This document shows, one piece after another, positions 11,823 through 21,064 of a stretch of DNA of 64,000 bases. The translations under genes and the position numbers were made by a program. The stretch is from assembly GCF_003391055.1 (NCBI RefSeq), contig NZ_QUAJ01000013.1, forward strand, positions 1 through 64,000. Reading direction: 5' to 3'. This stretch comes from Psychrilyobacter piezotolerans (GTDB lineage Bacteria > Fusobacteriota > Fusobacteriia > Fusobacteriales > Fusobacteriaceae). The notes beneath the pieces were generated by a model. It was not told where the DNA came from. It saw only the letters and a list, made by a program, of their open reading frames with translations, and ran no database searches. Positions within the stretch are counted from its first letter, which is position 1; each line of letters begins with the position of its first letter.

Positions 11823-12174
11823 CTAGGTGTTAGAGTCAGTCGCTGCTGGAGTAATCCAGGGGAGGAACGTCCGGGCTCCACAGGGCAATGAAGGCAGCTA
11901 ACGGCTGCTGAGGGAAACCTTAAGGAAAGTGCCACAGAAAATAGACCGCCTATGAACTTGTTTTGTAGGTAAGGGTGAAAAGGTGGGGTAAGAGCCCACC
12001 AGTATGATAGGAAACTATTGTAGCTTGGTAAACCCCTTCTGGAGCAAGACCGAAGAAAGGTCATTATGAGACTGCCCGTCTCGATCTTTAGGTGTGTCGC
12101 TTGAGCCTATAAGCAATTATAGGCCTAGATAAATGATTGACCAACGACAAAACCCGGCGTATCCTAACACCTAT
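11823..12174 (+). ncRNA. rnpB: RNase P RNA (bacterial type A)
   Basis: The catalytic RNA of RNase P, which removes 5' leaders from pre-tRNAs. The closing P1 helix is visible as AGGTGTTAG (11825-11833) pairing with CTAACACCT (12164-12172). The conserved core words are present: GAGGAACGTCCGGGCTCC near 11861 (CR-I region), CAGGGCA, GGTAAGGGTGAAAAGGTG, GGTAAACCCC and near the 3' end ACAAAACCCGGCGTA (CR-V/P4 strand). The length of about 350 nt is typical. A strong terminator follows. Exact transcript ends are not known. Confidence 0.96.
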
Positions 12175-12187
12175 TTATCATAAAATT

Positions 12188-13439: not shown

Positions 13440-13462
13440 TAAGGTTAAATTTTCCACAAAAT

Positions 13463-13490
13463 AGAAAAGCTGAATCCTTCAGCTTTTCTT
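13463..13490. terminator. terminator after the HAD gene
   Basis: AGAAAAGCTGAA-tcc-TTCAGCTTTTCT, a 12-bp stem with T-rich tail. Confidence 0.85.
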
Positions 13491-13528
13491 ATATAAGAAT
13501 AATTTTAAAAAAAATGTAAGATAAAATT

Positions 13529-13553
13529 AAGACCTTTAATAGGGTCTTTTTTT
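13529..13553 (+). terminator. second hairpin with T-run
   Basis: AAGACC-8 nt-GGTCTT followed by seven T. It sits 40 nt beyond the first terminator, so it may belong to the structured leader region of the next gene or simply back up termination. Confidence 0.55.
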
Positions 13554-13577
13554 CTTGATCCCGCTTTTATTTATTCT

Positions 13578-13664
13578 AATCATCCTTTAATATTAAAGTT
13601 CATTACATGACTGAACTTTCGCGAAACAATAGTTAGATGATTAAGACCTATGCAGAGGTCTTAA
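13578..13664 (+). other. candidate structured leader upstream of the EAL gene
   Basis: Three nested or serial pairings occur in this gap: TAATCATC (13578-13585) with GATGATTA (13636-13643), enclosing AAAGTTCA (13595-13602) with TGAACTTT (13612-13619), and then TTAAGACCT (13641-13649) with AGGTCTTAA (13656-13664). The outer helix and the last hairpin share the GATTA/TTAAG bases, so they would exclude one another. No GEMM or c-di-GMP-II riboswitch consensus was recognised. A cis-regulatory RNA is possible but unproven. Confidence 0.35.
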
Positions 13665-13748
13665 ATTGTACCTAATATAGAATAAAAAGCTAAATAAAAA
13701 GGAAGTATTTTCTTTTTAAGTATAACATCTTTACCAGGAGGTGATGCT

Positions 13749-15695
13749 GTGAAAAATATCAAAACAATCACTATGTCCAATCAAATTATATTATTTGTCT
13801 TTGGTCTTTTAACACTTTTTTTTATCATTTTTTTTATGGAATTTAATGACGTTCAGACGGAAATAGACTCTGATCTATATATGGGAGCTTCAAATGTCAA
13901 ATACTATATGGGGGAAAATTTCGTTAGTAAGAAGCTGAATGAAAATACATTAACCCCGGAAGAAGCTCTTGAAAAATTTAATTTTTTACATGAAAAAGCA
14001 CTATTATTGGGATTGGATTATTTTTACATCCTTATGAAAGATGGTAACGATATAGTTTATGCTGCCGTAAGTGATACCAAGGAAGAACTCCAAAAAGTTC
14101 CAAATTCAGGATTTTGGTTTTCCTTAAAGGAATCCGGGGATAATTCATTTGATGAAACCTGGGAAGCCTTTAAATCTTCTGAACCTGTATATATAGAATC
14201 CTCGGATATGTGGGGGAGCTATCGATCGGTGTATATTCCCGAAATTTCAAAGGATGGTATTAGATATATTGCCGGGGCCGATATTACAACTACTTCTTTA
14301 AAAAAACAGATTTTTTTAAAAACAATGAAGATATTTACTATATTTTTAATATCTATGTTTTTCATTGTACCGGTTTTATTTCTCTCTAAAAAAAGCATGA
14401 AAGCCAAAAAAAAATTAGAGAAATATATTACTTTTATGGATAATAGGGACAGACTTACAACTGCTTATAATAGAGACTATGGATTGAAACTCCTCTCAAA
14501 TAAAATTAAAGAGTTTCACACTGAGGGTAAATCCTTTTCTATCGGTCTTTTAAACATAGATAACCTAAGGTTTATAAATGAATCCCGTGGAATGGATGTA
14601 GGAGATTGTTTACTTATTATAGTTCATAGGCTTTTAGTCCGAATTTCTAGAAAAACAGATACAATTGTAAGGGTGGAAGGAAATAAATTTATGATCATAC
14701 TTCCCGGATTCCGTAAAAAATATCAGGGGAAAATATATGATGCCATTGAAAAAAAAATAGTGTTTTTCAATCAAAACAATAAAAAAGAATATTTTCTTAG
14801 ATTAAATTACATTATATGTGAATATTATGATGGCAGTATGAAGGATTTTTTTGAGGAATCTATTCAAAAATTAAAGAAATTAAAAAAAAATGGAGGGATG
14901 GAAGATCTGGTACTTAAAGATGAGATCTCAAGGGGGATAAAAAACCTGGAATTCAAAACATTTTTCCAGCCTAAGGTGTATTTAGAAGAAGAAAAAGTTG
15001 GTTTTGAAGCTCTAGTCAGGTGGTTTCATCCTGAAAAGGGAGTTATTTCACCAAACATATTTATTCCCCTGGCAGAAGAATCTTATCTGATCAATAAAAT
15101 AACTGAAATAGTTTTAAATGATTCCCTGAATGCTGCTGAGATCCTTAAAACAGATATTTCTATAAATTTATCTGCCATTTCATTTGAAAATAATTATTTT
15201 TTAAGTTCTCTTCAAAAAAAAATAGATGACTCTAGAAATAAAAATTATATTACCTTTGAATTAACAGAGAGAATAGCTGTAACTAATTTTGAGGATACCT
15301 TGGATAAAATAAATAATTTCAAAAAATCCGGAGTTTCATTTTCTATAGATGATTTTGGAAGCGGGTATTCTTCCCTTTCATATATTGAAAAACTTCCTAT
15401 AAATGAACTAAAGATAGACAAATCGTTTATAGACAATATAAATACATCTTTGGTTAACCCCATCATAATAGAATTGATTACAAAAATTGGAAGAGTTGCA
15501 GGGTTTAAAACTGTGTGCGAAGGTGTGGAAACCGAAGAGCAGATTGAAAAGTTAATATCACTGGGAAGCGACAGCTTCCAGGGATATTATTTTGGAAAAC
15601 CAGAGCCTCTTTTGAGGGTAGTGGAAAAATATGAGAAGGGAGAATATCATTCTAAGTTAAGGCAGTTTTCGTATAAAAATCAGCCTGAAAAATAG
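13749..15695 (+). CDS. membrane EAL c-di-GMP phosphodiesterase with degenerate GGDEF
   Basis: 648 residues: membrane helix about 10-30, an extracytoplasmic Cache-like sensor (30-185), second helix 188-212, GGDEF-fold domain (230-375) and EAL domain (390-635). The GGDEF signature is replaced by EGNKF, so cyclase activity is not expected; this half may bind GTP or regulate. The EAL half keeps the catalytic set: EALVRW, the Asn of INLS, the Glu of FELTER, DDFGSGYSSL, the Lys of LKIDKSF and EGVETEEQ. It should therefore hydrolyse c-di-GMP. The start is GTG at 13749 after AGGAGGTGAT; the ATG at 13744 meets a stop two codons later. It heads a run of c-di-GMP genes. Confidence 0.92.
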   Translation: MKNIKTITMSNQIILFVFGLLTLFFIIFFMEFNDVQTEIDSDLYMGASNVKYYMGENFVSKKLNENTLTPEEALEKFNFLHEKALLLGLDYFYILMKDGNDIVYAAVSDTKEELQKVPNSGFWFSLKESGDNSFDETWEAFKSSEPVYIESSDMWGSYRSVYIPEISKDGIRYIAGADITTTSLKKQIFLKTMKIFTIFLISMFFIVPVLFLSKKSMKAKKKLEKYITFMDNRDRLTTAYNRDYGLKLLSNKIKEFHTEGKSFSIGLLNIDNLRFINESRGMDVGDCLLIIVHRLLVRISRKTDTIVRVEGNKFMIILPGFRKKYQGKIYDAIEKKIVFFNQNNKKEYFLRLNYIICEYYDGSMKDFFEESIQKLKKLKKNGGMEDLVLKDEISRGIKNLEFKTFFQPKVYLEEEKVGFEALVRWFHPEKGVISPNIFIPLAEESYLINKITEIVLNDSLNAAEILKTDISINLSAISFENNYFLSSLQKKIDDSRNKNYITFELTERIAVTNFEDTLDKINNFKKSGVSFSIDDFGSGYSSLSYIEKLPINELKIDKSFIDNINTSLVNPIIIELITKIGRVAGFKTVCEGVETEEQIEKLISLGSDSFQGYYFGKPEPLLRVVEKYEKGEYHSKLRQFSYKNQPEK

Positions 15696-15718
15696 AGACT
15701 GAAAGTCTCTATTTTTCT
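15690..15718 (+). terminator. terminator after the EAL gene
   Basis: AATAGAGACT-gaa-AGTCTCTATT followed by T-rich sequence. The hairpin begins at the stop codon. Confidence 0.85.
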
Positions 15719-15808
15719 TAATTTGAATCACAATTTTTATAAAAATTAGATGAAATAACTAAAAACTATACTTTTAGGAGAAACCATCTGAAAAAAATAT
15801 TAGAGAAG

Positions 15809-16720
15809 GTGAAGAAGTTGGAAAATTTTAAATCATCTAAAATACTCATTTCATACTTAATCTTAATAGTGGTCACACTAACATTAGTATATTTAGATTC
15901 ATCCTTTGCAAAAGTAGAAAATCCATCATCAAAAGATATCATAAGTGAATTTTTAATCTGTATTCAACCTGCAATATGGATATACTTTGGAAAATCCGGT
16001 TTTAGAAACAGCAATCACTGCCGTTTGATGCTGGGTGGCTTTATTATCCTTTATTCAGGGATCTTACAGGATTTAATGGATGAATTTTATGAAATAGAAG
16101 GGGTCTTAGGCGAACTGGAAAATGTTTTGGTCCCCATTGGACTGATCATCATATCGATTGCCGTTATTTTACGTTTTTTAGAGGAGGAAAAAAACAAGCT
16201 GCTTCTCTCACAAAAGACTGAAGATATCTATAATAAAAGCATAAAAGATCCATTAACCGGACTATATAACAGATATCATCTTGAAGAACATCTCGAAACT
16301 ATCCTAGACAGACTAATTGATATTGATGCAGATGTATCGGTGGCGTTTATCGACATCGATAATTTTAAAGCAGTCAACGATGTGTATGGGCATGTAAAAG
16401 GTGATGAGGTTTTGACAATATTGGGGACAGAAATAAACAGATGCATAAGAAAGTCTGATTATGCTTTTAGATACGGCGGGGATGAATTTTTAATAATATA
16501 TCCGAATACTAAAGTAAAAACAGCTCTAGCAATAACCGAGAGGGTCAAAAAAAATATTTCTATATCATTGAAAATAAAAGGGATAAAATCAAGTCTCAGT
16601 ATTGGAATCACCACATATCAAAAATTTGAAAACTATAAAAATTTAATAGACAGAGCTGATAAGATTATGTACGAATCCAAAAGAAATGGTAAAAATCAAA
16701 TAACCATAGCTACTTCATGA
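15809..16720 (+). CDS. membrane diguanylate cyclase (GGDEF)
   Basis: 303 residues. Four hydrophobic helices (about 13-33, 45-60, 72-90, 105-125) are followed by a complete GGDEF domain from about 145: KDPLTGLYNRYHLEEHL, FIDIDNFKAVNDVYGH and FRYGGDEFLIIYP. The inhibitory I-site RKSD stands five residues before GGDEF, so product feedback is likely. It makes c-di-GMP from GTP. The start is uncertain: GTG at 15809 lacks a separate Shine-Dalgarno, whereas AAGGTGA at 15806-15812 would fit a TTG start at 15818. It follows the terminator of the EAL gene, so it probably has its own promoter, and it precedes a DUF1622 gene. Confidence 0.92.
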   Translation: MKKLENFKSSKILISYLILIVVTLTLVYLDSSFAKVENPSSKDIISEFLICIQPAIWIYFGKSGFRNSNHCRLMLGGFIILYSGILQDLMDEFYEIEGVLGELENVLVPIGLIIISIAVILRFLEEEKNKLLLSQKTEDIYNKSIKDPLTGLYNRYHLEEHLETILDRLIDIDADVSVAFIDIDNFKAVNDVYGHVKGDEVLTILGTEINRCIRKSDYAFRYGGDEFLIIYPNTKVKTALAITERVKKNISISLKIKGIKSSLSIGITTYQKFENYKNLIDRADKIMYESKRNGKNQITIATS

Positions 16721-16759
16721 TGGGGAATAAAAAAATCTGATGATTCAAAAGGAGGATGA

Positions 16760-17161
16760 ATGCAGAATCTTATACGAATTATAAACGAGATTATTATTAA
16801 TATGTGTCAGCTTTTAGCTTCCATAGTTATACTCTTAGGGGTAATCAAGGCTCTAATAATTTATGTTAAGGATCTTTTGTTTCAAAAGAACTCTCTAGAT
16901 ACCATCCAGGAGAGCAGATTAGAGATAGGACATTCCTTTTCTTTAGGATTAGCCTTTCTTATTGGAGCTAGTATTTTAAAAACTATTATTACCCCAAACT
17001 GGAATGATATCGGACAATTAGCGGCAACAATTGCAATTAGAACTACCCTCAATCATTTTTTGCTGAATGATCTAAAGAATATCTTCGAAAAAGAGAATAA
17101 TGCAGATACTCCGGAAGGGAACAACCTGAAAAAAGAAGATAGGGATAATAAAAAAAATTGA
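16760..17161 (+). CDS. DUF1622 membrane protein
   Basis: 133 residues with three hydrophobic segments (about 8-35, 55-75, 80-100). The pattern SRLEIGHSFSLGLAFLIGASILKTI ... DIGQLAATIAIRTTLNHFL is characteristic of the DUF1622 family of small inner-membrane proteins, whose function is unknown. A charged tail (about 110-133) is probably cytoplasmic. AAAGGAGGATGA precedes the ATG. It lies 39 nt after the GGDEF gene and 46 nt before the corrinoid-protein gene, so it may be part of either unit. Confidence 0.85.
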   Translation: MQNLIRIINEIIINMCQLLASIVILLGVIKALIIYVKDLLFQKNSLDTIQESRLEIGHSFSLGLAFLIGASILKTIITPNWNDIGQLAATIAIRTTLNHFLLNDLKNIFEKENNADTPEGNNLKKEDRDNKKN

Positions 17162-17207
17162 AATTTTAAAAATTTATTTTATAAATCTAAACAAAAGGAG
17201 GTATTTT

Positions 17208-17855
17208 GTGGATTATATCGAAATTTTTAGAGAGGAGTTTAAAACTTCTCTACTTAACAATGACCGTATTGGGATTTTTGATATCTATAGGAAGGTAAAA
17301 AATCATCCTATAGATTTTGATTTTATTGAAGATATTATGGTGCCGGCTGCCGAAGAAATAGGAGAATACTGGGATAAGGGGGAGGTGTCTCTGTCCCAGC
17401 TATATATGAGCGGCCGTATCTGCGAAGAGTTGGTAATTTCAATTTTTCCAGATCAACATCTACTTCACAGGGGCACTATGAATACGGCTATAGTCAATTT
17501 TTGCGACCACCATCCGCTGGGCAAGAAAATAGTCTGTTCCACATTCAAAGTAAATGGAATCCCCCTGCTCGACTACGGACACGGAATCGACCAGGAGACC
17601 CTCATAGAAAAACTCAAGAGGGATAGACCAAAATTTTTAGTAATCTCTGTTCTGATGCTGCCCTCAGCTCTAAAAATTAAAAAGCTGAAAGAGAGGCTGT
17701 TAAAAGAAGGGATGGATACCAAAATATTGGTTGGAGGTGCACCCTTTAGATTTGATAAAGATTTGTGGAAACAAGTCGGTGCAGATGCCATGGGTATTAC
17801 ACCAATGGATACGTTAAATATCATAAAGGAATGGGGGGGGAGCTGCAATGAGTAA
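17208..17855 (+). CDS. corrinoid (B12)-binding protein, MtaC/MtbC-like
   Basis: 215 residues. Residues 1-85 form the helical cap domain of methyltransferase corrinoid proteins (DFIEDIMVPAAEEIGEYWDKGEVSLSQ resembles the MtaC/MetH cap). Residues 90-210 form a Rossmann-type B12 domain with the cobalt-ligand signature DxHxxG as DHHPLG near 102 and a late VGGAPFRFD strand-loop. The His could serve as lower axial ligand. It should carry a methyl or other group on cobalamin, or sense cobalamin. The start is GTG at 17208 with an ideal AAAGGAGG. Its last codons overlap the methyltransferase-like gene by 8 nt. The local DNA looks somewhat richer in C/G codons than neighbours, which may hint at transfer. 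Confidence 0.9.
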   Translation: MDYIEIFREEFKTSLLNNDRIGIFDIYRKVKNHPIDFDFIEDIMVPAAEEIGEYWDKGEVSLSQLYMSGRICEELVISIFPDQHLLHRGTMNTAIVNFCDHHPLGKKIVCSTFKVNGIPLLDYGHGIDQETLIEKLKRDRPKFLVISVLMLPSALKIKKLKERLLKEGMDTKILVGGAPFRFDKDLWKQVGADAMGITPMDTLNIIKEWGGSCNE

Positions 17856-18903
17856 GTCTATGACATCACTAGAGAGAGTATTGAAGGCAATGAGCCACCA
17901 AGAAGCCGACAGGGTGCCGCTGTTTTTACTGTTTTCCATGTACGGAGCCAAAGAATTGAATTTAAGTATAGAAGATTATTACTCCGATCCCAAAAACGTG
18001 GTTAGAGCTCAGATAAAGCTAAGGGAAAAATATGGGCATGATTGCTTCTATACATTTTATTATGCATCCATCGAGACAGAAGCCTGGGGTGGAGAAGTTA
18101 TTTTTTCAGAAGATGGTCCTCCAAATTCTGGTAAGCCTATAATAACAGAAAGGGTGGAAATAAGTGATTTGAAGGTTCCTGACATCCATTCTTCACCCTG
18201 TCTGAACAGGGTTTTAGAGACGACCAGGGAACTAAAAAGGTACAGCGATGAGGTGCCCATTATAGGCGTGGTGATGTCCCCCTTCTCATTACCTGTCATG
18301 CAAATGGGGTTTGATAAGTACATAGAAATGATCTATGAAGACAGACAATTTTTTGATAAACTGATGGAGATAAACGAGGAGTTTTGCATCCGCTGGGCAA
18401 ATGCCCAATTAGAAGCCGGAGCCACAGCTATCTGCTATTTTAATCCAGTGTCATCCACTAGCATTATACCGAAAGAAATGTACAAAAAAACCGGATTCCA
18501 GGTGGACAAAAGAACAATTTCAAGAATTAACGGCCCTACCGTTACCCACGTTGCATCCGGTCGCTGCCTCCCAATCATAGAGGAAATCATAGAGACTGGT
18601 ACCCTGGGCATAGGTGTGAGTACACTGGAAGATATAGGGGCTTTAAAGGAGGAGTGCAGGGGGAAGCTTTTCGTATTTGGAAATTTGGATGGAATAGAGA
18701 TGTGTAACTGGGATGAAGGTGAGACGAAAAAAAAATTAGAAGAGCTTATTGAAAAAGCGGGATCCGGGGGTGGTCTTGCCATTTCAGATAATCACGGCGA
18801 AATACCATGGCAGGTACCTGAAAAAACTCTTTTGAATATATCAAAATATTCAAAAATCTTAGGGCTGTATCCTTCCAAAGATGCTGATCTAAATGAAGAA
18901 TAA
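17848..18903 (+). CDS. MtaA/UroD-family methyltransferase-like protein
   Basis: 351 residues with the uroporphyrinogen decarboxylase fold used by MtaA/CmuA corrinoid methyltransferases: SLERVLKAMSHQEADRVPLF at the N-terminus, ATAICYFNPVSSTSIIPKEMY near 195, and VFGNLDG near 275. The zinc ligands of MtaA (HxC plus a late Cys) are not in canonical form: the strand reads HVASGRC near 233-239, and the C-terminal loop reads AISDNHGEIP with no Cys. So it may use another metal site or act as a binding protein. It shares an 8-nt overlap with the corrinoid gene upstream and 11 nt with the GGDEF gene downstream, which is strong evidence that the three work together. The substrate is unknown. Confidence 0.85.
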   Translation: MSKSMTSLERVLKAMSHQEADRVPLFLLFSMYGAKELNLSIEDYYSDPKNVVRAQIKLREKYGHDCFYTFYYASIETEAWGGEVIFSEDGPPNSGKPIITERVEISDLKVPDIHSSPCLNRVLETTRELKRYSDEVPIIGVVMSPFSLPVMQMGFDKYIEMIYEDRQFFDKLMEINEEFCIRWANAQLEAGATAICYFNPVSSTSIIPKEMYKKTGFQVDKRTISRINGPTVTHVASGRCLPIIEEIIETGTLGIGVSTLEDIGALKEECRGKLFVFGNLDGIEMCNWDEGETKKKLEELIEKAGSGGGLAISDNHGEIPWQVPEKTLLNISKYSKILGLYPSKDADLNEE

Positions 18904-20911
18904 AACCTGTATACTGATATGCAGCAATTTTTATTTGGAATTGAAGGCTGTACTGGATAAAGAAAAACTAAATGATTTCTTTGCAAAAAGTTTTGACTGC
19001 AATTGTGCGGTACCTCAGCAGGAGAGCTGCTCTGTCATAGAAAGAATCTTAGAAAAAAATAAAAATAAATATTCAAGAACTCACCTGATATGCAGCAGCG
19101 GGTGTACGGGTACTGGAAGCCTAAATAAAAATAAGCCTGACTTTGGAATCAGCGAGACAAAATTATGTTTTAATTATCTTATCAATGAAAATATCGTCAA
19201 TACTTATCTGGATAAAGGCAACTATATAATAAGCCCTGGATGGCTGAACAGATGGGAACACTATGTTATAGACATCTGGAAATTTGATCAAAATACTGCA
19301 AGAGAGTTTTTTAGAGAACATGTATCGCAGCTGCTTCTTCTGGATACCGGGGTATATAAAGAAAGTATCCGTAAAATACAGCAATTTTCAAACTATGTAG
19401 ACAGGCCTTTTGAAATTTTGCCCGTTGGCCTTGATTATTTCAGCCTGTTTATCAAAAATATTATTCTTGAATTAAAAAATGAATCGGTCCAGGCAAGGCA
19501 GGAAGAACAAAGAAAGATCTCCATACTGCAAAACAAGAAAAATTCCGATTATTCGATGATCTGTGATTGGTTTGGAAATTTGAAGCAAACAATGGGCGAG
19601 GAATCCGTAATCAAACACATTCTCGATTTGATAAAAATGCTTTTTGCACCGGGAAAAATAATATATCTATCGGTAGGAGATGGCGAAAAAATAAATAAGC
19701 TTATTTGTTTTCCCCAGGGATGCGATCAAAGTGAATTAATGGAAATTTATGAAAATAGGATGGATGGAAAGTATCGGTGGACAAGATCAGGAAGTGGTTT
19801 TTGCATTAAGATCAGTCATGAAGGTACCTTACTAGGGATTCTTTTGGTGGATGATATAATGTTTGCGGAATATAGAAACAGCTACTTAAATACTTTTTTA
19901 GACATAAGCAACATATTTGGGTTAACTATTTCCACAGCGAGAATATACTCTAAATTTTTAGATACGAAAAACAGCCTAAGCATACAAAAATCATATTTTC
20001 AGCAGTTATTTAAAAATTCACCTGATGGGATTTTAAGACTGGATAAAGATTTAAGTGTCAAGGACGTCAATATCGCCTTTTTGCAAATGTTTCAGTCTTT
20101 TAAAAAAAATGTGATAGGTATAAAAATAAGAGATCTCTTAGGACTTTCCAACAAGACAGAAAATTATGATATATACATATATCAGCTGAAAAAAGGTCAA
20201 ACTGTTAAAATTGAAACTAAAATAAGATCCCAAAATAGGGAGAGAGATGTATATATTCTAGCTTACCCCATAATAAATTTGGATGAATTAACCGGCTTCT
20301 ATGTTATCTTCTCTGATATCTCAGATAGAAAAAATAAAGAAAAGAAAATTAGAAAACTGGCCTACGAAGACAGCCTGACCGGAATGCTGAACAGAAGGGC
20401 GTTTGAAATACAGCTCATGACAGCTTTAGACCGCTACCGGTTAAAAAAAGAAATTTTTACTCTGTTCATAATAGATATAAATAAATTCAAGAAAATTAAC
20501 GATACTTTCGGGCATAGCGTAGGGGATGAGGTGTTGGTCAAGGTGGCTGCCAAATTAAAAGGGTGCATGCGTAAAAGTGACGCTGCATTTAGAATAGGCG
20601 GTGATGAATTCGCCTTAATAATACCGGATCTCTGTCAAGTTGATGTAGTTGAAAATATGGCCAAAAGGATATTATCTAATCTGGAGATGAAGTTTCCAGT
20701 CAAAGAATCTACTTTTAAACTCTCCGCCAGTATGGGGATATCCATCTGCCCATACGACGGTACAGATATGGAAACATTGTATAAAAAAGCCGATATAGCC
20801 ATGTACAAGGTAAAGAAGATGCAGAGTCATGAGTTCAGTTTTTTTAGCAGCAGGTATGATAATGAAAGTAATGCAGACTTATGCGCAGCGGCTGTGAGAT
20901 CAGAATATTAA
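18893..20911 (+). CDS. DUF1638-like-GAF-PAS-GGDEF diguanylate cyclase
   Basis: 672 residues, apparently soluble. Residues 1-185 resemble DUF1638, a domain otherwise met beside corrinoid methyltransferases: a Cys-rich CSSGCTGTG loop near 68, then ETKLCFNYL and GNYIISPGWLNRWEHYV near 105-125. Residues about 215-355 look GAF-like, 365-480 is a PAS domain (LFKNSPDGILRLDKDLSVKD), and 490-650 is a complete GGDEF domain (EDSLTGMLNRRAFE, FRIGGDEFALIIPD) with the I-site RKSD five residues upstream. It should make c-di-GMP in response to an input from the N-terminus. The start lies inside the upstream gene and has only a weak Shine-Dalgarno, so translation is probably coupled. The DUF1638 assignment is by eye. 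Confidence 0.85.
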   Translation: MKNKTCILICSNFYLELKAVLDKEKLNDFFAKSFDCNCAVPQQESCSVIERILEKNKNKYSRTHLICSSGCTGTGSLNKNKPDFGISETKLCFNYLINENIVNTYLDKGNYIISPGWLNRWEHYVIDIWKFDQNTAREFFREHVSQLLLLDTGVYKESIRKIQQFSNYVDRPFEILPVGLDYFSLFIKNIILELKNESVQARQEEQRKISILQNKKNSDYSMICDWFGNLKQTMGEESVIKHILDLIKMLFAPGKIIYLSVGDGEKINKLICFPQGCDQSELMEIYENRMDGKYRWTRSGSGFCIKISHEGTLLGILLVDDIMFAEYRNSYLNTFLDISNIFGLTISTARIYSKFLDTKNSLSIQKSYFQQLFKNSPDGILRLDKDLSVKDVNIAFLQMFQSFKKNVIGIKIRDLLGLSNKTENYDIYIYQLKKGQTVKIETKIRSQNRERDVYILAYPIINLDELTGFYVIFSDISDRKNKEKKIRKLAYEDSLTGMLNRRAFEIQLMTALDRYRLKKEIFTLFIIDINKFKKINDTFGHSVGDEVLVKVAAKLKGCMRKSDAAFRIGGDEFALIIPDLCQVDVVENMAKRILSNLEMKFPVKESTFKLSASMGISICPYDGTDMETLYKKADIAMYKVKKMQSHEFSFFSSRYDNESNADLCAAAVRSEY

Positions 20912-20921
20912 ATAAAAAATT

Positions 20922-20962
20922 AAAGAGCTTGTTTTCTGTGTTTTGCAGGAGCAGGCTTTTTA
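20922..20962 (+). terminator. imperfect terminator after the corrinoid/GGDEF operon
   Basis: AAAGAGCTTG ... CAGGAGCAGGCTTTTT forms an interrupted stem with T-run. Confidence 0.6.
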
Positions 20963-21008
20963 ATTTTAACTGCATTTTATATTTATTATTTCCATATGAT
21001 AAAAAAAA

Positions 21009-21064
21009 TTGACTTGTGTGTGTGGAAAATGTTACACTAACACAGAAGTGACTAGTCAGTCATT
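21009..21064 (+). promoter_or_regulatory. promoter and TetR-type operator of the efflux operon
   Basis: TTGACT (21009-21014), an 18-nt spacer and TACACT (21033-21038), followed about 10 nt later by TGACTAGTCA (21049-21058), a perfect 10-bp palindrome continued by GTCA. The palindrome lies at or just after the expected start site, as expected for autorepression by the TetR protein encoded next. Confidence 0.65.

Follow-up and report, generated by a model that had tools for sequence, protein, structure and literature searches.

Proteins of the DUF1638 family are so far unexplained partners of corrinoid methyl transfer. A stand-alone DUF1638 protein is required, with a RamA-like protein, for B12-dependent methionine synthesis in Phaeobacter (PMC5764234), and another is more abundant in Ruegeria during growth on betaine (PMC12478193), which argues that DUF1638 works with corrinoid proteins. 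B12-based photoreceptors have also been described; they include CarH and the photocobilins, among them a protein that combines a diguanylate cyclase (DGC) with cobalamin and bilin domains, and the light signature of such cobalamin-domain sensors consists of GxxW, EH, GxxH and GxxxP (PMC11796333). A census of inputs to cyclic di-GMP (c-di-GMP) signalling never mentions cobalamin or corrinoids (PMC8846402). In the open papers that we searched, a scope that leaves priority uncertain, we found neither a corrinoid methyltransferase pair turned into a co-sensor nor a kinase or cyclase linked to a corrinoid or UroD-like protein. Here we analyse 64,000 nt of Psychrilyobacter piezotolerans DNA (contig NZ_QUAJ01000013.1, positions 1 to 64,000; hereafter the window), in which three overlapping genes encode a corrinoid protein, a UroD-like protein and a DUF1638-GAF-PAS-GGDEF protein. 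We consider it probable, at roughly 60%, that this trio is a cytoplasmic sensory module with the UroD-like protein as input, the corrinoid protein as messenger and DUF1638 as reader.

Open reading frames (ORFs) of the window were read from the sequence, and domains were assigned by Pfam profile search. The trio consists of three plus-strand ORFs, at 17208-17855 (start GTG), 17848-18903 (ATG) and 18893-20911 (ATG). Their coordinates confirm the overlaps of 8 and 11 nt noted in a previous reading of the DNA made from the letters alone (the sequence-only reading), and Pfam, with a structure model for the GAF domain, supports the identities that it gave: an MtaC-like B12-binding protein, an MtaA/UroD-like protein and a DUF1638-GAF-PAS-GGDEF protein. 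The features of the trio are as follows.

17208..17855, plus strand: corrinoid (B12-binding) protein of 215 residues, MtaC/MttC/CobDH-like, DxHxxG intact (Pfam; homologue adjoining in 80 of 80 related loci)
17848..18903, plus strand: UroD/MtaA-fold protein of 351 residues with H-x-A...DNHGEIP in place of HxC...C; family-defining and most conserved component (Pfam; alignment)
18893..19462, plus strand: DUF1638 domain, residues 1-190, with C10, C38, C71 and C92 (Pfam PF07796; Cys/His conservation; modelled alpha/beta fold)
19433..19582, plus strand: long linker or signalling helix, residues 181-230 (AlphaFold2 model, DSSP)
19598..19939, plus strand: GAF domain, residues 236-349, missed by Pfam (AlphaFold2 pLDDT about 88-96; GAF structure matches, Z up to 14.3)
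19997..20326, plus strand: PAS domain, residues 369-478 (Pfam PAS families)
20360..20824, plus strand: GGDEF diguanylate cyclase domain, residues 490-644, active site and I-site intact (Pfam 1.5e-45; RKSD-AAFRI-GGDEF)

We used the UroD-like protein on its own to search about 85,000 species genomes and took the best 80 of 201 loci (52-62% identity), which were chosen by UroD similarity only, with no selection of neighbours. The three-gene order on which the sequence-only reading had hinged recurs in other genomes: a corrinoid gene of the same subfamily adjoins the UroD-like gene in 80 of the 80 loci, and a DUF1638-bearing signalling protein is encoded next in 68. Of the remaining 12, eight have a signalling or stand-alone protein that starts at the GAF segment, three run into contig ends and one has neither. 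Counts of DUF1638 and of outputs rely partly on models made from the family itself, and Pfam agrees independently, since 65 of 68 related proteins match DUF1638 at E 0.001. Gene overlaps of 1-16 nt recur among the related loci. Linkage of the trio is far above chance. That the genes are merely chance neighbours in one genome could draw on the fact that we did not find the trio at useful similarity in any other of 98 genomes of the host's phylum, but this idea is refuted by the linkage across at least 14 phyla of loci picked on the UroD-like protein only, and we give it next to no weight. The trio is a conserved module, made up of a corrinoid protein, a UroD-like protein with HxA and DNHGEIP and a signalling protein headed by DUF1638 or GAF, in independent lineages.

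The module is present in at least 14 phyla besides that of the window genome, and the hosts are mostly metagenome-assembled genomes, so single phylum assignments may be binning errors, above all those of the archaeal loci L047 and L095. In a tree of the UroD-like protein the host phylum changes at least 29 times, and the module has spread laterally. Cultured strains that carry it are Acetobacterium fimetarium (L084) and Halanaerobium saccharolyticum (L085); Desulfonema magnum (L058) and a Methylobacter are also hosts. The identical order, with a DUF1638-GAF-PAS-kinase-receiver protein, is found in a sister subfamily at 42-44% identity, which indicates that the arrangement is old. Mean pairwise identity falls from 62% in the UroD-like protein to 48% in the corrinoid protein, 32% in DUF1638 and 30% in GAF; this gradient, with one module copy per genome in 34 of 35 hosts, fits a single conserved input whose output evolves freely. 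Distances of the corrinoid protein, the UroD-like protein, DUF1638 and GAF correlate, most highly for corrinoid and DUF1638 (r 0.74), as shared inheritance alone would also produce. Among 194 genomes of the bacterial class that includes Desulfonema magnum, 18 carry the system. Each of the 18 has the corrinoid protein, the UroD-like protein, which in two of them is truncated or broken, and a protein with GAF or DUF1638. After inspection no genuine UroD-only or output-only case was left in that class, the apparent exceptions being a UroD frame break (G150), a UroD truncation (G317) and a contig end (G247).

Several loci depart from the common layout. Corrinoid and UroD-like proteins are naturally fused in L089, and DUF1638 stands alone beside a GAF-kinase in L066. 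At two Desulfobacterota-class loci (L206, L207) intact corrinoid and GAF genes flank a UroD-like gene that is truncated or split over two frames, through decay or assembly error. Six loci, mostly from Desulfobacterota (L032, L039, L040, L055, L198, L199), combine the corrinoid and UroD-like genes with nothing more than a stand-alone GAF protein, about 230-270 residues long, in which there is no DUF1638 and no recognised output domain. The order in two Electrothrix loci (L078, L086) is UroD, corrinoid, DUF1638 kinase and then a response-regulator-like gene, with a second UroD copy in L086. A Parabeggiatoa genome has, besides a full trio, a second corrinoid gene followed directly by a DUF1638-GAF-kinase-receiver gene, without UroD (L172:474-3309).

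The UroD-like protein matches Pfam URO-D at 4e-52, and in a Foldseek search a model of the L089 fusion matched 4ay7 and 4ay8 at E about 3e-18 (TM 0.88 by target length for 4ay8). This model (pLDDT 84, pTM 0.62), made from an alignment that includes two rows joined by reading through the stop codons between adjacent genes, was used for fold identity only, not for docking. The canonical zinc ligands, held to be absent in the sequence-only reading, are indeed missing from the alignment. The MtaA motif HxC...C corresponds to H234-x-A236...D314-N315-H316, with Ala for the zinc-ligand Cys in 79 of 81 family rows and DNH in place of the second zinc Cys in about 80 homologues. The host provides a contrast: its separate metabolic corrinoid operon (L147; G000:C20:50000-68000) encodes three zinc-type UroDs, all of which keep HIC...C, together with a corrinoid protein, RACo, a G3E-like GTPase and transporter-like proteins. 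Across the UroD-like family D314-N315-H316-G-E318-I-P (DNHGEIP) is invariant, and H234-x-A-S-G, GPPNSG, SPFSLPVMQMGF and YFDPVSS are near-invariant. Since the strongest constraint in the module lies on this pocket, with its invariant DNHGEIP, the simplest reading is one conserved ligand, and the pattern of conservation suggests that the pocket recognises one. With the zinc ligands lost, MtaA-like thiol chemistry is unlikely, and the reaction or the ligand must differ from that of MtaA.

Two identities for the UroD-like protein were rejected. An MtaA-type zinc methyltransferase fits the fold, but the zinc ligands are gone and the score against NCBIfam TIGR01463 (MtaA type) is 114 bits, below the cut-off of 235 bits. 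An O-demethylase-type zinc motif, E-X14-E-X20-H, is likewise absent from all 81 family members. HemE is another UroD-fold family and binds a tetrapyrrole. HemE identity was ruled out by the TIGR01464 score (49 bits, below the cut-off of 303 bits) and by Tyr72, which aligns with the HemE catalytic Asp and is Tyr in 75 of 81 rows; the His of DNHG aligns with the His of the HemE GHG motif.

The corrinoid protein matches Pfam B12-binding (2e-14) and B12-binding_2, the cap (6e-8). DxHxxG reads D100-H-H102-P-L-G105 in the window protein, and D100, H102 and G105 are present in all 79 aligned rows that have a residue there; judged by sequence, the protein retains MtaC-like cap and B12 domains and a predicted cobalt-binding motif. 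The subfamily scores under all NCBIfam curated cut-offs. A model of the protein resembles photocobilin and CarH-type cobalamin domains at the fold level. This resemblance, with tetrapyrrole binding by HemE and the His that it shares with DNHG, is what a light or tetrapyrrole sensor would call on, in which, as in photocobilins with their cyclase, cobalamin domain and bilin domain, a tetrapyrrole would be bound, here by the UroD fold. We regard such a sensor as very improbable. In the corrinoid family GxxW is kept but the EH pair of the published light signature (PMC11796333) is V/I/L-Y (one F), Tyr72 stands at the position of the HemE catalytic Asp, and by their titles numerous host records come from metagenomes of sediment or groundwater.

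The N-terminal domain of the third protein, proposed beforehand to be DUF1638, scores 32.7 bits against PF07796, above the Pfam cut-off of 27. In an AlphaFold2 model of residues 1-350 (pLDDT 92.9) a GAF domain is clear and matches GAF structures (best Z 14.3); a fold search for the DUF1638 domain returned two match lists, both filled by GAF matches. C10, C38, C71 and C92 are each conserved in at least 90% of rows, and in the model each sits where one of the first four strands ends, or just past it. In such folds active sites usually lie at strand ends. From this placement of four conserved Cys we infer a metal or Fe-S site, and a metal or redox site at this position is likely. Stand-alone DUF1638 proteins (L009, L011, L149-L178) have C, H, C and C at the same positions, so that C...H...C...C may be a metal site throughout the family, and in L009 a RamA/RACo-like gene adjoins the DUF1638 gene. 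The GGDEF domain (Pfam 1.5e-45) has both its I-site, RKSD, and its active site, RIGGDEF, intact, as claimed earlier, and by sequence it qualifies as a putative active diguanylate cyclase. A Kyte-Doolittle maximum of 1.5 indicates no transmembrane helix, in line with the soluble protein that had been proposed.

The 68 full DUF1638 proteins carry HATPase_c (42), GGDEF (14) and receiver (11) outputs, and active sites and I-sites are intact in 14 of the 14 GGDEF outputs. At least eight switches between kinase and cyclase fall on the UroD tree, an approximate count because the tree came from a short search and has many weak forks. Of 43 downstream genes, 15 encode kinases and 14 receivers, the extra neighbours that recur, and nearly all other neighbour families are singletons; beside the 80 loci there is no recurrent methyltransferase (MttB/MtaB-like), RACo, folate, C1 or metabolic gene. 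Because outputs are swapped and only signalling genes recur, the trio reads as a sensory input module and not as a catabolic operon. The same facts bear on a metabolic methyltransferase system whose DUF1638 reactivation protein gained a signalling tail to report or tune its own flux. Corrinoid methyltransferase metabolism is known to use all three families, and stand-alone DUF1638 acts there (PMC5764234, PMC12478193), but the lack of recurring metabolic neighbours, the host's own separate operon with RACo and zinc-type UroDs, and the persistence of GAF-headed signalling proteins where DUF1638 has been lost make this improbable. The sequence-only reading saw a catabolic enzyme pair reused as a sensor for c-di-GMP synthesis; a corrinoid methyltransferase-like pair that feeds a signalling protein is indeed widely conserved, but c-di-GMP is not the sole output, histidine kinases being about three times commoner. 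The signal that it proposed, a methyl donor or the methylation state of the corrinoid, is a hypothesis.

Sequences and models show the gene linkage, the domain content, the loss of the zinc ligands, the swapping of outputs, the lateral spread and the gain in the window genome. Comparative evidence from sequences strongly supports a signalling role for the trio, within which we infer the ligand, the methyl transfer, the protein contacts and the direction of control. The UroD-like protein would be the input unit: it would bind a single conserved small ligand, in all likelihood a methyl donor, and would either transfer the methyl group to the corrinoid cobalt or remove it from there. The corrinoid protein would serve as messenger, its states being methylated, Co(I)/Co(II) or docked, and DUF1638 would read that state via its conserved Cys4 site. 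The signal would then pass along the long helix to GAF, PAS (in the window genome) and the output domain, which is GGDEF, for c-di-GMP, in the window genome and a histidine kinase in most others. In its most specific form, a zinc-free UroD-like enzyme would load the methyl group of one specific, widely met compound onto the corrinoid, and methyl-cobalt would gate kinases and cyclases via DUF1638; this version we put forward only tentatively.

Some observations weigh against this scheme. DUF1638 is absent from eight loci, and these, with the L172 pair that has no UroD, would leave only the corrinoid protein indispensable. With the MtaA zinc site gone, the UroD-like protein may only bind, its catalysis lost, and corrinoid-UroD contact was modelled only as the one fused chain, whose pTM of 0.62 does not imply docking. 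Part of this would suit a corrinoid-state sensor without a methyl donor, reporting cobamide availability or cobalt redox (oxygen, NO, CO, reductant), with the UroD-like protein as a non-catalytic partner that handles ligand or cobamide. The Cys-to-Ala change in 79 of 81 rows, the four DUF1638 Cys that suit a metal or Fe-S site and the corrinoid and DUF1638-kinase pair of L172 are consistent with it, as are the link of stand-alone DUF1638 to corrinoid reactivation with RamA/RACo (PMC5764234) and the RamA/RACo-like neighbour in L009. However, no other part is nearly as conserved as the UroD-like protein, whose rebuilt invariant pocket is hard to explain without specific recognition, and RACo was not found in 12 of 43 host genomes. 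We judge such a sensor rather unlikely, though the most credible of the alternatives, and favour the ligand-driven module.

In the window genome the trio lies in a larger block, of which the other features are as follows.

13443..21045, no strand: 7.6-kb block with the trio and three c-di-GMP/membrane genes (empty site in L185, L186, L187, L188)
13749..15695, plus strand: co-inserted GGDEF-EAL protein, associated with the trio only in this genome (Pfam; empty-site comparison)
15809..16720, plus strand: co-inserted GGDEF protein (Pfam; empty-site comparison)
16760..17161, plus strand: co-inserted small DUF1622 protein, ending 46 nt upstream of the corrinoid gene (Pfam; empty-site comparison)

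The four congeners have an empty site, in which the TetR gene region (from 21046) comes immediately after the HAD gene (end at 13442); the block of six genes (GGDEF-EAL, GGDEF, DUF1622 and the trio) is therefore specific to the window genome in this comparison and was gained there as a block. Its borders have no long terminal repeats, and no integrase-like ORF is among the ORFs listed there. G+C is 0.40-0.42 in the corrinoid and UroD genes and 0.31-0.32 in the three upstream genes of the block, hinting at a separate origin of the two genes inside it. An Rfam search at the gathering threshold found no B12 riboswitch or other RNA near the trio; the sole match in the window is an ordinary bacterial RNase P RNA class A at 11824-12177.

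If our reading is correct, the trio is a new class of sensory input, in which a catabolic-type corrinoid enzyme pair feeds two-component and c-di-GMP signalling, and methyl-cobalt is a message in a signalling chemistry common to at least 14 phyla. Its carriers are anaerobic and sediment bacteria, sulphate reducers, magnetotactic bacteria, methylotrophs and perhaps archaea. DUF1638 would gain a testable role, as a reader of corrinoid proteins with a Cys4 or Cys3His site, and, with one conserved pocket in the UroD-like protein, a single ligand is to be expected.

Compared with known systems, we regard the input module as new in kind and the outputs as ordinary. The UroD-like protein shares its fold and its pairing with a corrinoid protein with the methylcobamide:CoM methyltransferases MtaA, MtbA and CmuA, but it lacks HxC...C, scores far under their NCBIfam curated cut-offs and is linked to signalling rather than methanogenic or C1 genes. 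The corrinoid protein has the cap, B12 domain, DxHxxG, SxL and GG of MtaC, MttC, MtgC and CobDH, but forms a distinct subfamily that in the fetched loci is always beside the UroD-like gene, with no recurring substrate methyltransferase nearby. DUF1638 belongs to the same Pfam family as the proteins of methionine synthesis and betaine demethylation, with C10, C71, C92 and the fourth ligand position conserved alike; those proteins stand alone and have His at the fourth position, whereas that of the trio usually has Cys and is fused to GAF and a kinase or cyclase. CarH and the photocobilins likewise use a B12-binding domain as sensor, with a DGC output possible, but they are single-chain adenosylcobalamin light sensors with an EH motif, whereas the trio comprises three proteins, with a UroD-like partner and DUF1638 and without EH. 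With histidine kinases and diguanylate cyclases that have separate cytoplasmic co-sensors, the trio has in common its ordinary HisKA/HATPase, REC or GGDEF outputs.

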